A stretch of 64,000 bases of DNA from Dehalogenimonas sp. THU2 (GTDB taxonomy: Bacteria > Chloroflexota > Dehalococcoidia > Dehalococcoidales > Dehalococcoidaceae): positions 1 through 64,000 of the forward strand of contig NZ_JBDLLU010000008.1 of NCBI RefSeq assembly GCF_039749495.1, read 5' to 3'. Positions 60,076 through 64,000 of this stretch are shown here, piece after piece. Numbering within the stretch: position 1 is the stretch's first letter; each line of letters starts with the position of its first letter. The notes below the pieces were generated by a model. That model saw only the letters and a program-made list of their open reading frames with translations. It did no database searches and had not been told where the DNA came from. Made by a program: the position numbers and the translations under genes.

Positions 60076-60786
60076 TCAGTTGATTCCGTAGTTGTGAGCC
60101 AACACTGCGAGTTGAGTCCGATTCGACACTCCCAACTTCTTCATACATCTGTAAACGTACTTTTTTACAGTTGCCGAAGTGTATTTCAATTGGTTCCCAA
60201 TGTCTTTATTGCAGTAGCCTTTTGCTAGTAAATGAAACACAAGTCTTTCTTTGTCGGTCAATACTGCACCGAACTTTTCGTTCACGTATCGATTGTTAAT
60301 CGTCGGTTCTGTTAATTGCCGGGATATGTTGCCCATTGCCCTGTAAAAGACTCGAGTATCCCATACGCATAAGCCAGAACAAATCATTCTGATTGCTGAA
60401 GCCAGTACCATCCTCGGGCTTTCCTTCAACACAAATCCGTCTGCTTTTGACTTAATAGCTTCAGTCAGATACAACTCCGAATCATACCCCGTCAGAAGCA
60501 GGATACCAGTAGATGGATATTCACTCCGAATTTTTTGCGTCAGCGTGAACCCATCCATATCTGATCCACCAAGTTGGATGTCCAATATAACAATATCGGG
60601 TCTTAAATCCCTGACGAGTTCGAATCCACCAGTCGGATCAGAGGCTTGACCCAAGACTTCTATATCCTTTTCCCTTTGGAGCATCGTCTGCAATCCTTGC
60701 CGAACAACTTCATGATCGTCGACTAGGGCGATCGTTATTGTCCGTCCAACTGGCAGCGGCGAATCCTGAAAAGTGTTCTGATCCAT
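60076..60786 (-). CDS. NarL/LuxR-type response regulator
   Basis: A 236-residue regulator. The receiver has IALVDDHEVVRQGLQTML, DIVILDIQLGGSDMDGF (phospho-acceptor Asp), GILLLTGYDS and DGFVLKESPRM; the C-terminal LuxR helix-turn-helix has LTDKERLVFHLLAKGYCNKD, IGNQLKYTSATVKKYV, MKKLGVSNRTQLAVLA. Its ATG overlaps the kinase stop by one base (TAATG). Confidence 0.92.
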   Translation of the reverse strand: MDQNTFQDSPLPVGRTITIALVDDHEVVRQGLQTMLQREKDIEVLGQASDPTGGFELVRDLRPDIVILDIQLGGSDMDGFTLTQKIRSEYPSTGILLLTGYDSELYLTEAIKSKADGFVLKESPRMVLASAIRMICSGLCVWDTRVFYRAMGNISRQLTEPTINNRYVNEKFGAVLTDKERLVFHLLAKGYCNKDIGNQLKYTSATVKKYVYRCMKKLGVSNRTQLAVLAHNYGIN

Positions 60787-61970
60787 TAGAGTGTTCTCCT
60801 CTCTCGATCCCTCGGGTCAGCCCACCCGGATGGTTCAAAAGGAACTGCAACGTCTATTGCGGTACCTTGTGTTAGATGGCTATTGATCTTAAAGGAGCCA
60901 CCAAGGAGTTCGATCCGCTGCCTCATTCCTTCAATCCCTCCCGATTCTCCATTTAGTATCGAGTCGATATCAAAACCCTTCCCATCGTCCGAAATCCGTA
61001 GACTAACAATTTCACCGTTACTTTCAACGGAAACGATTACCTGTGTTGAGGTCAGGCTATGCTTCACGATGTTTAGAATCGCTTCGTGGAAGACACGGTA
61101 CAAAGCTGTTTCAATTTGAGGCACTAATCGTGTGTTTAGGTTACTCGTCATTTGGACTTTCAGTCCTGTTTTATCTTCCAATAGTCTAAGTTCTTGTTTT
61201 ATCAATTCAATCAAGCCATATCTTGTGAGCGTGATTGGGTATAGTGATTTCATGATGCTTCTAGTTTCATTCAGAGTACTTCTTATAAGTTGAAGCACCT
61301 CATACACTTGAAGCTTCTGCGATCCAGCAGTCTCTTCCAAGACTTCGCTAAGGTAGTGGCAGATATGTACTAAGTCCTGAACAACGCGATCGTGGAGTTC
61401 TGCCGCTAAGAGTTTACGTTCGTTTTCTTGAGCTTTAATGTATTCCAATGTTAAATCGCGCAATTTACGCTCGAAAAAGGCTATCTGGTCTTGTTTTAGC
61501 TTACTATCTCGAATACTAGCTTCAAGTTTTTCCACTATGCCTGTTAATTCTCTGGTCCTAACCTGAACCATCTCTTCAAGCCGATTCCGGTATTGGTCTA
61601 ATTCTTTTTCTTTGTTTACCCGTTCTGTGTCATCTCGGACCAGACTCTGGATATATTTCTTCCCGTCAATCGCAAGTAAGCGACTGATGAAACTAGTGTG
61701 TACGATATATCCGTCTTCCCTCAAGTAATCAAGATTAGCCCCTCCATATCCTCGTTCAACTATCTCTTTGAACACCTTTTCCCCTGCAGCCTGTTGCTCT
61801 GGGGGGCGAGTCTCCCACACCCTCATCTTGATCAGCTCTTCGAACGTTTTTCCGGTAAGCAACCGATACTCTTTATTGCAGTCAACTATTCGTCCAGTCT
61901 CAGCATCGATAAGAGCGATGCCATCACGTGAATTGTCAAAAAGCATCTGGTACTTGGCTTCTTTTTCCAT
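60786..61970 (-). CDS. PAS-domain histidine kinase (HisKA_3 / NarX-DegS type)
   Basis: A 394-residue soluble kinase. A PAS domain (YQMLFDNSRDGIALIDAETG..KEYRLLTGKTFEELI) and coiled-coil are followed by the HisKA_3 dimer motif ERKLLAAELHDRVVQDLVHI with the phospho-His, then the ATPase parts FHEAILNIVKHS, ISDDGKGFD and GGIEGMRQRIELLGGSF. No membrane helix is seen, so it senses an internal signal. It is coupled to the LuxR-type regulator. Soluble PAS kinases of this type often sit beside reductive dehalogenase genes in this group, although none is adjacent here. Confidence 0.9.
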   Translation of the reverse strand: MEKEAKYQMLFDNSRDGIALIDAETGRIVDCNKEYRLLTGKTFEELIKMRVWETRPPEQQAAGEKVFKEIVERGYGGANLDYLREDGYIVHTSFISRLLAIDGKKYIQSLVRDDTERVNKEKELDQYRNRLEEMVQVRTRELTGIVEKLEASIRDSKLKQDQIAFFERKLRDLTLEYIKAQENERKLLAAELHDRVVQDLVHICHYLSEVLEETAGSQKLQVYEVLQLIRSTLNETRSIMKSLYPITLTRYGLIELIKQELRLLEDKTGLKVQMTSNLNTRLVPQIETALYRVFHEAILNIVKHSLTSTQVIVSVESNGEIVSLRISDDGKGFDIDSILNGESGGIEGMRQRIELLGGSFKINSHLTQGTAIDVAVPFEPSGWADPRDRERRTL

Positions 61971-61996
61971 GTTAGGACCCTGACCTTTCGACCCGG

Positions 61997-62104
61997 ATTA
62001 TATGTCCATGCTGATACCTTTGGAAGAGCCCGTGGTAAAAGCGAGGCGGTATAAGGTTATTTTATCTACGATTACCATCCACCTTTGATACCTTCATTGT
62101 ATCA
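61997..62104 (-). promoter_or_regulatory. Promoter and repeated AAGGTATCA operator of the kinase operon
   Basis: TATAAT (minus strand) at 61997-62002. The motif AAGGTATCA (TGATACCTT on plus) occurs at 62012-62020 in the -35/-10 spacer and again at 62086-62094, where with GTATCA (62099-62104) it forms a 6-bp dyad (7-nt centre). It may be an autoregulatory site. Confidence 0.5.
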
Positions 62105-62231
62105 CAATGCCTAGAAAATCTACGCATAAAATACGATGGCAAAACCAGTATTTTCCGATAGCATTGGTGTCATCGGTTAAAACTGGGGATCATGCCAACT
62201 TAGGTAGACTCATAAAGTGAATAGTGCCAAC

Positions 62232-62352
62232 GGCAAGCCCCACGGTGGGGGAAACCAGGGTGCCGGGCTGTTGCGACCAGCCTGCTTAATATGCTGTGAA
62301 ACCCCTCCCGTGGGCTCCCTGGGTGTAATCGGGGTTCACCGCGGGGCTTGCC
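62232..62352 (+). other. 121-bp imperfect inverted-repeat leader before the radical-SAM gene
   Basis: GGCAAGCCCC (62232-62241) pairs with GGGGCTTGCC (62343-62352), continuing after one mismatch with CGGTG/CACCG. Inside, CCAGGG-T-GCC (62255-62264) pairs with GGC-T-CCCTGG (62313-62322), and GGCTG/CAGCC forms a small hairpin. It ends 20 nt before ATG 62373 and has no U-tract, so it resembles a structured 5' leader or a small palindromic element. I could not match it to a cobalamin or SAM riboswitch. Confidence 0.6.
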
Positions 62353-62372
62353 AGACTTAAAAAAGGGAACTG

Positions 62373-63185
62373 ATGCTGACCAACGTCTATAACATAGCCT
62401 TCGCCGAGTCCACCAGGCAAGCATATCTCCATTTCTGGGGATGTAATATCCGCTGTAAGGGCTGTATCCTCCGAAAAATTCCTTACGACTCAATGCTCGA
62501 CCGCAATATGCATCTTTACCTTGCTGAGCCCAAAGGTGAAGCGGCACCTCCGAATAGATTTCTCGATCTTGAAAGTGTAATGGGTATCCTATCTGACCTC
62601 AGGCCGACTTCAGTCATCTTCGAAGGCCAAGAAGCATCTCTAGACCCGTGTTTCGCCTTAATCGCCAAAACCCTGCATCAAAGGTTCAAAACCCAAAATA
62701 TCCTTCTGACTAATGGGCTGAATATGCCTGATCTTTCGCACGTCGACAAGGTAGCGGTAGGCCTTAAGTGCTTCGATGAGGACTTACACATCGACTATAC
62801 CGGCTTTTCAAACCGGCAGATACTTTCCAATTTCCGGAGGATCCATGCATCCGGAATAGCTATTCTGGCCGAGACGGTAATCATCCCCGGATATATAGAT
62901 GATGAAGAGGTCGAGAAACTTTCTCAGTTCATCGCCTCTGTTGACCGAAATATTCTGTATCACCTAGATGCATACTCCAGGGTGGCTGAGAACCATTGGC
63001 AAAGAGCCACAACGAAAGACGTCGAACAGGCAGCCGTAGCCGCCAGACGACACCTGCTTAATGTGCACTTTCTCCGTGATGAACCCAGGGAGTTCGGCGT
63101 TAAATCCATCTTCCCGACTGAGGCTGAGCTAGATGCCCCGGAACTAGCCCCAGCCGTAGAGACCCGAGAATTGGTTACTACCTGA
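62373..63185 (+). CDS. Radical SAM protein
   Basis: A 270-residue radical-SAM enzyme. The cluster motif is WGCNIRCKGC (C-x3-C-x2-C) within AYLHFWGCNIRCKGCILRK. Other segments are VIFEGQEASLDP, LLTNGLNMPD and VKAVG-like VAVGLKCFDED, with LAETVIIPGYIDD. The layout is close to pyruvate formate-lyase-activase-like and related small radical-SAM proteins; the reaction is unknown. An AGGGA site precedes ATG 62373. The following B12-binding radical-SAM gene starts about 24 nt later. Confidence 0.88.
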   Translation: MLTNVYNIAFAESTRQAYLHFWGCNIRCKGCILRKIPYDSMLDRNMHLYLAEPKGEAAPPNRFLDLESVMGILSDLRPTSVIFEGQEASLDPCFALIAKTLHQRFKTQNILLTNGLNMPDLSHVDKVAVGLKCFDEDLHIDYTGFSNRQILSNFRRIHASGIAILAETVIIPGYIDDEEVEKLSQFIASVDRNILYHLDAYSRVAENHWQRATTKDVEQAAVAARRHLLNVHFLRDEPREFGVKSIFPTEAELDAPELAPAVETRELVTT

Positions 63186-63208: not shown

Positions 63209-64000
63209 GTGAGAGTACTATTAGCAGCCGCCACCACCCCGGCTTTTAAACGGGCTTTTGCCAACTCCAGCAACCTGCCTAACGCCTTGCTCTTCATTGG
63301 CGCCATGCTGGAAAAGCACGGCCATGAGGTCCAGGTCTACGACGGGTTTATGGACAACCGCACGCCCGCCGAGTTGGCCGGGTTCAAACCGGACGTCATA
63401 GGTTTTTCAGTCATTGTCGGCCCGAACATGGAAGCCGCCATCAACTATTCTAGGCAATTCAAATCGCTCCTGCCTAGCGTCAAAATTGTCTGGGGCAACG
63501 TTTGCCCCAGTGTGCTGACCGAGCAGACCTTGGCTGAAGACTATGTCGATTTTGCCGTCATCGGCGCCGGCGAACATACTATGGTTGAGTTGTGCGATCA
63601 CCTGGAGAAAGGTTCTCTAGGTATACTCGAGGACATCAAAGGACTGGCTTTCAAGGACGCAAGAGGCCAAGTTGTCATCAACGAGCACCGGCCTTTTGTC
63701 CGGGACATGGACGAACTGCCCGACCCAGCCTGGCACCTGGTCGATGCCGCTAAGTACCGGGAACTCGATCTCAACACCAGCCGCGGCTGCGCCTACCACT
63801 GCGCTTTCTGTTACAACGACTCTTTCAATAAAGGATCACTGGGCTATCTTTCCGCGGAACGCCTGATTGCGCAGATTCAGCACCTTCAAAAAACCTACGG
63901 TGCCAAACATATCCGTTTTAATGATGACAACTTCACCTTCAACCGCAAGCGCCTTCGCGATTTCTGCCGTCTCCTCAGAGAGCATAGGATCAAGCTAACG
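63209..64000 (+). CDS. B12-binding-domain radical SAM protein (cut by window end)
   Basis: The first 264 residues of a longer protein starting at GTG 63209. The N-terminal Rossmann-like cobalamin-binding domain has LLFIGAMLEKHGHEVQVYDG, GFSVIVGPNMEAAINYSR and FAVIGAGEHTMVELCDHL. The radical-SAM cluster motif SRGCAYHCAFCYN (C-x3-C-x2-C) follows at about residues 190-202, then IRFNDDNFTFNRKRL. Such enzymes methylate unreactive carbon or phosphorus centres or rearrange carbon skeletons. It is probably co-transcribed with the preceding radical-SAM gene. Confidence 0.9.
   Translation, partial: MRVLLAAATTPAFKRAFANSSNLPNALLFIGAMLEKHGHEVQVYDGFMDNRTPAELAGFKPDVIGFSVIVGPNMEAAINYSRQFKSLLPSVKIVWGNVCPSVLTEQTLAEDYVDFAVIGAGEHTMVELCDHLEKGSLGILEDIKGLAFKDARGQVVINEHRPFVRDMDELPDPAWHLVDAAKYRELDLNTSRGCAYHCAFCYNDSFNKGSLGYLSAERLIAQIQHLQKTYGAKHIRFNDDNFTFNRKRLRDFCRLLREHRIKLT

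Follow-up and report, generated by a model that had tools for sequence, protein, structure and literature searches.

What kind of element lies directly 5' of a radical-SAM gene of Dehalogenimonas sp. THU2, at positions 62232-62352 of the window (the whole 64,000-nt stretch of DNA analyzed), is the question raised by this locus. A sequence-only reading had described a 121-bp region with a 15-bp outer stem and internal paired segments, located 20 nt before the start codon, which could be a new ligand-sensing leader, a protein-binding site or a small palindromic element. The first of these is favored by the data reported here, the reading as a mobile repeat being disfavored for the subtype of the window (type A, see below). 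The best reading is a new cis-regulatory RNA class of Dehalococcoidia, which, judging from sequence comparisons, is probably a riboswitch.

The element and its surroundings

The 121-nt element is bounded by arms of 16 nt each (P1), which form 15 pairs and one A-C mismatch (94% complementary) and are separated by 89 nt according to the inverted-repeat search. A gap of 20 nt (62353-62372) precedes the ATG at 62373. P1, P2, P3 and P4 are all present in the minimum free energy (MFE) fold, so that both the outer stem and the internal paired segments described earlier stand. The radical-SAM assignment of the gene is equally borne out (Table 1). Neither terminator-like sites, in agreement with the lack of a terminator U-tract noted before, nor sigma-70-like promoters were found in the interval 61950-62420. 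Rfam 15 gave no match to the element at gathering or permissive thresholds, only tRNAs and chance matches being returned, in line with the impression that this does not look like a known riboswitch.

The folding energy of the 121 nt corresponds to a z score of -2.35 against shuffled sequence (-1.25 with flanks), which is by itself only modest evidence for structure. As this energy is only moderately better than that of shuffles, a single sequence would not settle the structure; the comparative evidence, homologs and compensatory changes in aligned sequences, lifts the predicted fold of the window element beyond chance.

The radical-SAM protein encoded downstream is a paralog (42% identity) of the radical-SAM protein of an rSAM-CbiZ-CbiB-CobA operon headed by a cobalamin riboswitch (locus L186). 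Among orthologs of the window gene, a degraded element is found at L202, and no element at L203 and L204. Reductive dehalogenase genes lie beyond the window (PF13486 matches at G000:C8:64926-67292). Upstream of the element, and divergent from it, a PAS-domain-type sensor kinase and a LuxR-type response regulator were read from the translations at 60076-61970 (- strand); the pair resembles two-component systems found near reductive dehalogenase genes.

Table 1. Parts of the window element and genes downstream, in window coordinates
Feature	Position	Strand	Basis
P1 5' arm GGCAAGCCCCACGGTG	62232-62247	+	inverted repeat; class-specific pair counts
P2 5' strand GGGG, pairs with 62302-62305	62248-62251	+	MFE; covariation counts
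AAA linker, almost invariant	62252-62254	+	alignments A1 and A2
Pseudoknot 5' strand CCAGGG, pairs with 62317-62322	62255-62260	+	covariation; strand-pair inventory
Hairpin P3, type A loop motif GCGAC at 62273-62277	62262-62285	+	MFE; motif counts; P3 pair counts in types B/C
Type A signature CTGTGAAACC, 5' of P2 3' strand and overlapping its start	62294-62303	+	motif count
P2 3' strand CCCC	62302-62305	+	covariation counts
P4 5' strand CCCG, pairs with 62330-62333	62307-62310	+	covariation counts
Pseudoknot 3' strand CCCTGG, within P4 loop	62317-62322	+	covariation; strand-pair inventory
Conserved GTGTAAT, then P4 3' strand CGGG	62323-62333	+	almost invariant in alignments
P1 3' arm	62337-62352	+	inverted repeat; pair counts
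Probable ribosome-binding site AAGGGAA	62363-62369	+	inferred from sequence reading
Radical SAM protein, 270 aa, CxxxCxxC (CNIRCKGC)	62373-63185	+	PF04055, 42 bits
B12-binding-domain radical SAM protein, continues past window end	63209-64000	+	best NCBIfam matches are B12-binding rSAM families, scores below their cut-offs; PF02310 in a homolog

A pseudoknotted RNA family of Dehalococcoidia

The window element is a member of an RNA family that Rfam 15 does not contain. A second copy resides 13 kb away in the same genome, and is 97% identical across exactly the 121 nt. Of the 61 genomes of the order compared (the own genome and 60 relatives), 16 yielded homologs by BLASTN. A covariance model built from 35 copies (R1) matched 22 of 294 genomes of the class and, in a draw of 400 genomes of the phylum, 11 genomes, all of this order, none of the matches listed falling outside Dehalococcoidia. 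A second model (R2), which includes P1 and P3, was built from type B and C elements and one type D element, leaving out type A; it matched 29 of 393 genomes of the class (1-6 copies per genome) and recovered type A elements independently, the window element scoring 78.8 bits (E 1.8e-16). The family is confined to Dehalococcoidia in the covariance-model searches. A pattern scan of 84,980 GTDB species genomes returned ten stretches. Nine belong to Dehalococcoidia; the tenth is on a contig of a Kiritimatiellae metagenome-assembled genome. This contig (SLAD01000018.1, L099) carries a 5'-truncated type B element almost identical to L133, and is perhaps a binning error. No published description of the family was found in the open literature, a search which covers subscription journals and preprints poorly. 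Copies within one genome are up to 97-98% identical; near-identical copies also have upstream sequence in common, which is consistent with duplication of leader segments.

The fold derived from an alignment of 76 rows (A2) consists of P1, of P2 (GGGG/CCCC) enclosing the variable hairpin P3, of P4 (CCCG/CGGG), and of a 6-bp pseudoknot, missed by the earlier reading, in which the strand following AAA in the P2/P3 linker pairs with the P4 loop. P2, P4 and the pseudoknot together have 98.8% of cells paired and two-sided changes in 9 of 14 pairs, counts which are not independent events as the rows are related. Cells with two-sided changes number 50, against 7.8 in shuffles, and none of 500 shuffles reached any of five covariation measures; sliding the strands lowered pairing to 21-77%. 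Taken singly, P2 is paired in 97.8% of cells, P4 in 99.3% and the pseudoknot in 99.2%, with two-sided changes in 3 of 4, 2 of 4 and 4 of 6 pairs, respectively. The pseudoknot strands occur as CCAGGG/CCCTGG, TCAGGG/CCCTGA, CTGAGG/CCTCAG, CTAGGG/CCCTAG, CCAAGG/CCTTGG and TCATGG/CCATGA, the variant pairs being found in several genera. A2 was fitted to a model containing P2 and P4 and lacking the pseudoknot, and the pseudoknot counts are therefore not circular in that way. By class-specific counting, P1 is paired in 353 of 383 cells (shuffle mean 336.3, sd 2.6, maximum 345); P3, counted in types B and C, also exceeds its shuffles. Compensatory changes, the check proposed with the first description, are thus present in all four helices and in the pseudoknot. 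On the gene-sense strand, G-U pairs outnumber A-C juxtapositions (103 vs. 35), an excess in keeping with an RNA transcribed in the direction of the gene. There is little doubt that this is a real, conserved and structured leader RNA.

Subtypes and downstream genes

Four subtypes were distinguished. Type A is limited, in this sample, to six Dehalogenimonas-like genomes, that is, to the genus of the window. All type A rows but one (23 of 24) carry the GCGAC loop, as does one of 44 rows of the other types; the string CTGTG[AG]AACC, by which type A is in part defined, is likewise found in 23 of 24 type A rows. In type B elements P1 ends with CTGCCG/CGGCAG, and P3 is followed by TTAA. Types C and D are more diverse. 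Relative to the core, P1 of type A is offset by two positions from P1 of types B and C. Two subtypes (D, then C) occur in tandem before a Dpp-type transporter operon (L104, 521-811).

Type A elements are associated with cobamide genes, which are the first or second substantial gene downstream at about 26 of 29 loci, as counted from ORF calls and a reading of our own. Two degenerate copies (the context of one, G005:1690384, being inferred from its G006 counterpart) and G007:185930 depart from this pattern. Downstream genes encode class II ribonucleotide reductase-like proteins (NrdJ-like, TIGR02504, 447 bits, above the cut-off of 400), RdhA (PF13486), radical-SAM proteins of the window family, B12-binding radical-SAM proteins, and rSAM-CbiZ pairs (CbiZ by PF01955). 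Among the 24 distinct type A rows, 23 have a co-directional first ORF of at least 100 aa, and translation often starts 15-70 nt past P1. SAM, considered earlier as a ligand, is not supported, the common downstream theme being the cobamide.

The strongest point of the type A context is an exchange with the cobalamin riboswitch. The rSAM-CbiZ-CbiB-CobA operons of G003 and G005 (L186-L189) are headed by RF00174-type cobalamin riboswitches (24-30 bits, under the gathering score of 31.5), the rSAM-CbiZ-rSAM operons of G004 and G007 (L037, L038) by type A elements; identity between the swapped operons is 62% for the radical-SAM protein and 47-49% for CbiZ. Dehalogenimonas are described as corrinoid auxotrophs which salvage cobamides (PMC13390414). 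A family of class II ribonucleotide reductase-like proteins of ~600 aa is expanded in genomes G000-G010 (1-9 copies per genome, beside one copy of ~900 aa); the genes often adjoin rdhA and the radical-SAM family, as at G003:C1:1449423-1450682 and G000:C8:75619-76875.

Type B elements lie at molybdenum or tungsten genes at about 13 of roughly 20 loci. They precede TAT-type 2Fe-2S/molybdopterin hydroxylase operons, ModA (TIGR01256) with ModB (TIGR02141), ModBC with YqeB (a MobA-like transferase being encoded upstream), an ABC transporter with YqeB (TIGR03309), and an operon for a 4Fe-4S protein and an AOR (L223). The same kind of 4Fe-4S-AOR operon is headed in G025 by a canonical Moco RNA (L152). 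An ORF of ~60 aa (RSTIGLRxSTKxRLDxxRAPGQCYDGF) is located after type B elements as well as after a canonical Moco RNA (L128, L133, L134, L152); the ORF found after the Moco RNA of L152 is also present in type B hydroxylase operons. The ligand of type B is possibly Moco/Tuco, judging from these gene neighborhoods. The neighbors of type C copies include TRAP, Dpp and Liv transporter genes, among others. Several B and C copies, including all those of Dehalococcoides, have no co-directional next gene, and may be stand-alone RNAs or relics. In Dehalococcoides (L109, L111) the type B RNA is directly followed by an intrinsic terminator, with no co-directional gene, an arrangement conserved across species; this RNA is possibly a stand-alone RNA. 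Genes upstream of the copies encode transporters, response regulators, a MobA-like transferase and others, and a transposase-linked repeat was rejected on these grounds.

What the RNA may sense

On balance, we favor the view that the window element forms the 5' leader of a cobamide-related operon, as a member of a pseudoknotted cis-regulatory RNA family. It is most likely a riboswitch, and somewhat more likely than not one for cobamides. The folded type A core, with its GCGAC loop, would bind a corrinoid or cobamide; binding would stabilize P1, P2, P4 and the pseudoknot, and the stabilized fold would alter the access of ribosomes to the start site 5-70 nt downstream. An ON switch would be plausible for enzymes requiring the cofactor. 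Intrinsic terminators are missing in all 24 type A leaders, and were rejected as the common expression platform. Since type A lacks them, translational control or Rho-dependent termination is favored for these leaders. A hairpin sequestering the Shine-Dalgarno (SD) sequence was seen in several nrdJ leaders, and in these only; the search for terminators and SD hairpins recognized no expression platform in the window leader. Several points temper the cobamide reading: the core is common to copies at molybdenum and unrelated genes, and hence need not itself bind a corrinoid; some orthologs of the window gene have a degraded element or none; neither a promoter nor an expression platform was recognized in the window; the cobalamin riboswitches at the swapped operons score below the gathering score; and canonical cobalamin riboswitches, as well as Moco riboswitches, occur elsewhere in the same genomes, so that a further corrinoid sensor would in part duplicate them.

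The activity of dechlorinating bacteria of this kind, used in the clean-up of chlorinated solvents, depends on cobamide supply. If the element is a riboswitch, a class absent from Rfam precedes reductive dehalogenase and cobamide-salvage genes, and would allow a connection between cobamide status and the expression of dehalogenases to be tested; its subtypes would be a natural example of a single RNA scaffold serving unrelated cofactors. We put forward, tentatively, that the subclasses of this scaffold sense different large metal cofactors, type A (GCGAC loop) cobamides and type B the molybdenum or tungsten cofactor, these two standing in for the canonical cobalamin and Moco riboswitches, respectively, at homologous operons; further subtypes, before transport operons, would sense other ligands. 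Subtypes of a single scaffold before different gene sets are also known for the ykkC riboswitch family (PMC7266159), to which no sequence relation of the element was found.

It is rather unlikely that the conserved RNA is instead bound by one regulatory protein in all of types A, B and C, be it an antitermination factor or a protein that senses corrinoids, Mo or redox state, the ligand being sensed by the protein. A common protein would explain why a near-invariant core precedes cobamide, molybdenum and TRAP/Dpp genes, and would suit the absence of an obvious intrinsic expression platform; yet a core of this size and high conservation, with a pseudoknot and with loops specific to subtypes, is what is seen in aptamers, and an unsystematic look noticed no co-occurring candidate RNA-binding protein. 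Less probable still is a single non-cobamide ligand for types A, B and C alike, such as a general metabolic or redox signal, the cobamide and molybdenum links being separate uses. The core common to all types and the scatter of type C near transporter and other genes would agree with this, but the type-specific GCGAC loop, the P1/J4-1 geometry and the exchange, at homologous operons, with canonical riboswitches for two different cofactors do not.

We give very little credence to the idea that a small MITE-like mobile palindrome, or a site of structured DNA, has come to lie upstream of genes by chance. Up to six copies per genome, the near-identity of some of them, the sharp outer inverted repeat, and a next gene on the opposite strand in 12 of 44 B/C/D rows are features expected of such an element. 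Many copies unrelated to radical-SAM genes had been named in advance as the sign of a mobile repeat, and many copies are indeed not at radical-SAM genes; those of Dehalogenimonas, however, unlike a mobile repeat, head genes for cobamide enzymes or salvage, and type A copies are nearly always co-directional with them. Compensatory changes in every helix, the pseudoknot included, and the sense-strand G-U bias argue against a DNA element, and no transposase-like gene was noticed in the flanks read, bar one fragmentary case (L222, not family-searched).

The cobamide-riboswitch reading also calls for comparison with known leader RNAs. Like the cobalamin riboswitch (RF00174/RF01482), the element lies before cobamide genes, is of similar leader size, heads an operon homologous to the rSAM-CbiZ operon headed by that riboswitch in two relatives, and features the short string CCCG...UGUAAU.GGG. 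It differs in that covariance models give no match either way, the pseudoknot strand lies within the P4 loop, the long P1 is of other sequence, and no terminator is present. In a comparison of models, the cobalamin riboswitch has an L5-L13 kissing loop connecting aptamer and expression platform, whereas the long-range pairing of the element, between P2/P3 linker and P4 loop, stays within the core. With the Moco riboswitches (RF01055, and Moco-II RF01713, listed for Proteobacteria; PMC2864571) type B elements have downstream genes in common (ModABC, Mo hydroxylase, AOR), one operon type being headed by either RNA. The GNRA tetraloop on P4 and the tetraloop receptor in P2 which define Moco RNAs (PMC2408646) are missing from the A2 alignment, and the RF01713 model does not match the element. 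The rdhA motif WRC-34-1, likewise a candidate leader RNA, lies upstream of reductive dehalogenase genes (rdhA) of Dehalococcoidia, mostly in Dehalococcoides (PMC11109978). Identity with this motif, judged from its published placement, was not supported, as our model run with filters off at 16 Dehalococcoides rdhA loci gave nothing convincing (best 11.8 bits, E 0.057).

That the element is a highly diverged member of the cobalamin (RF00174) or Moco (RF01055) family is hardly credible: it shares GGGAA...CCCG...TGTAAT.GGG with the former, including P6 of the cobalamin riboswitch, and CAGGGTG...CCTCCCGT with the latter, but resemblance to two unrelated families at once, with neither model matching (Rfam scans at E up to 3-10; no match of R2 at loci carrying the canonical riboswitches), suggests chance, and the topology differs, with a pseudoknot strand inside the P4 loop and no GNRA-loop hairpin. 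Two tandem canonical cobalamin riboswitches were observed before a transporter operon at L190 (3181-3518; G004:C1:838680-839039).
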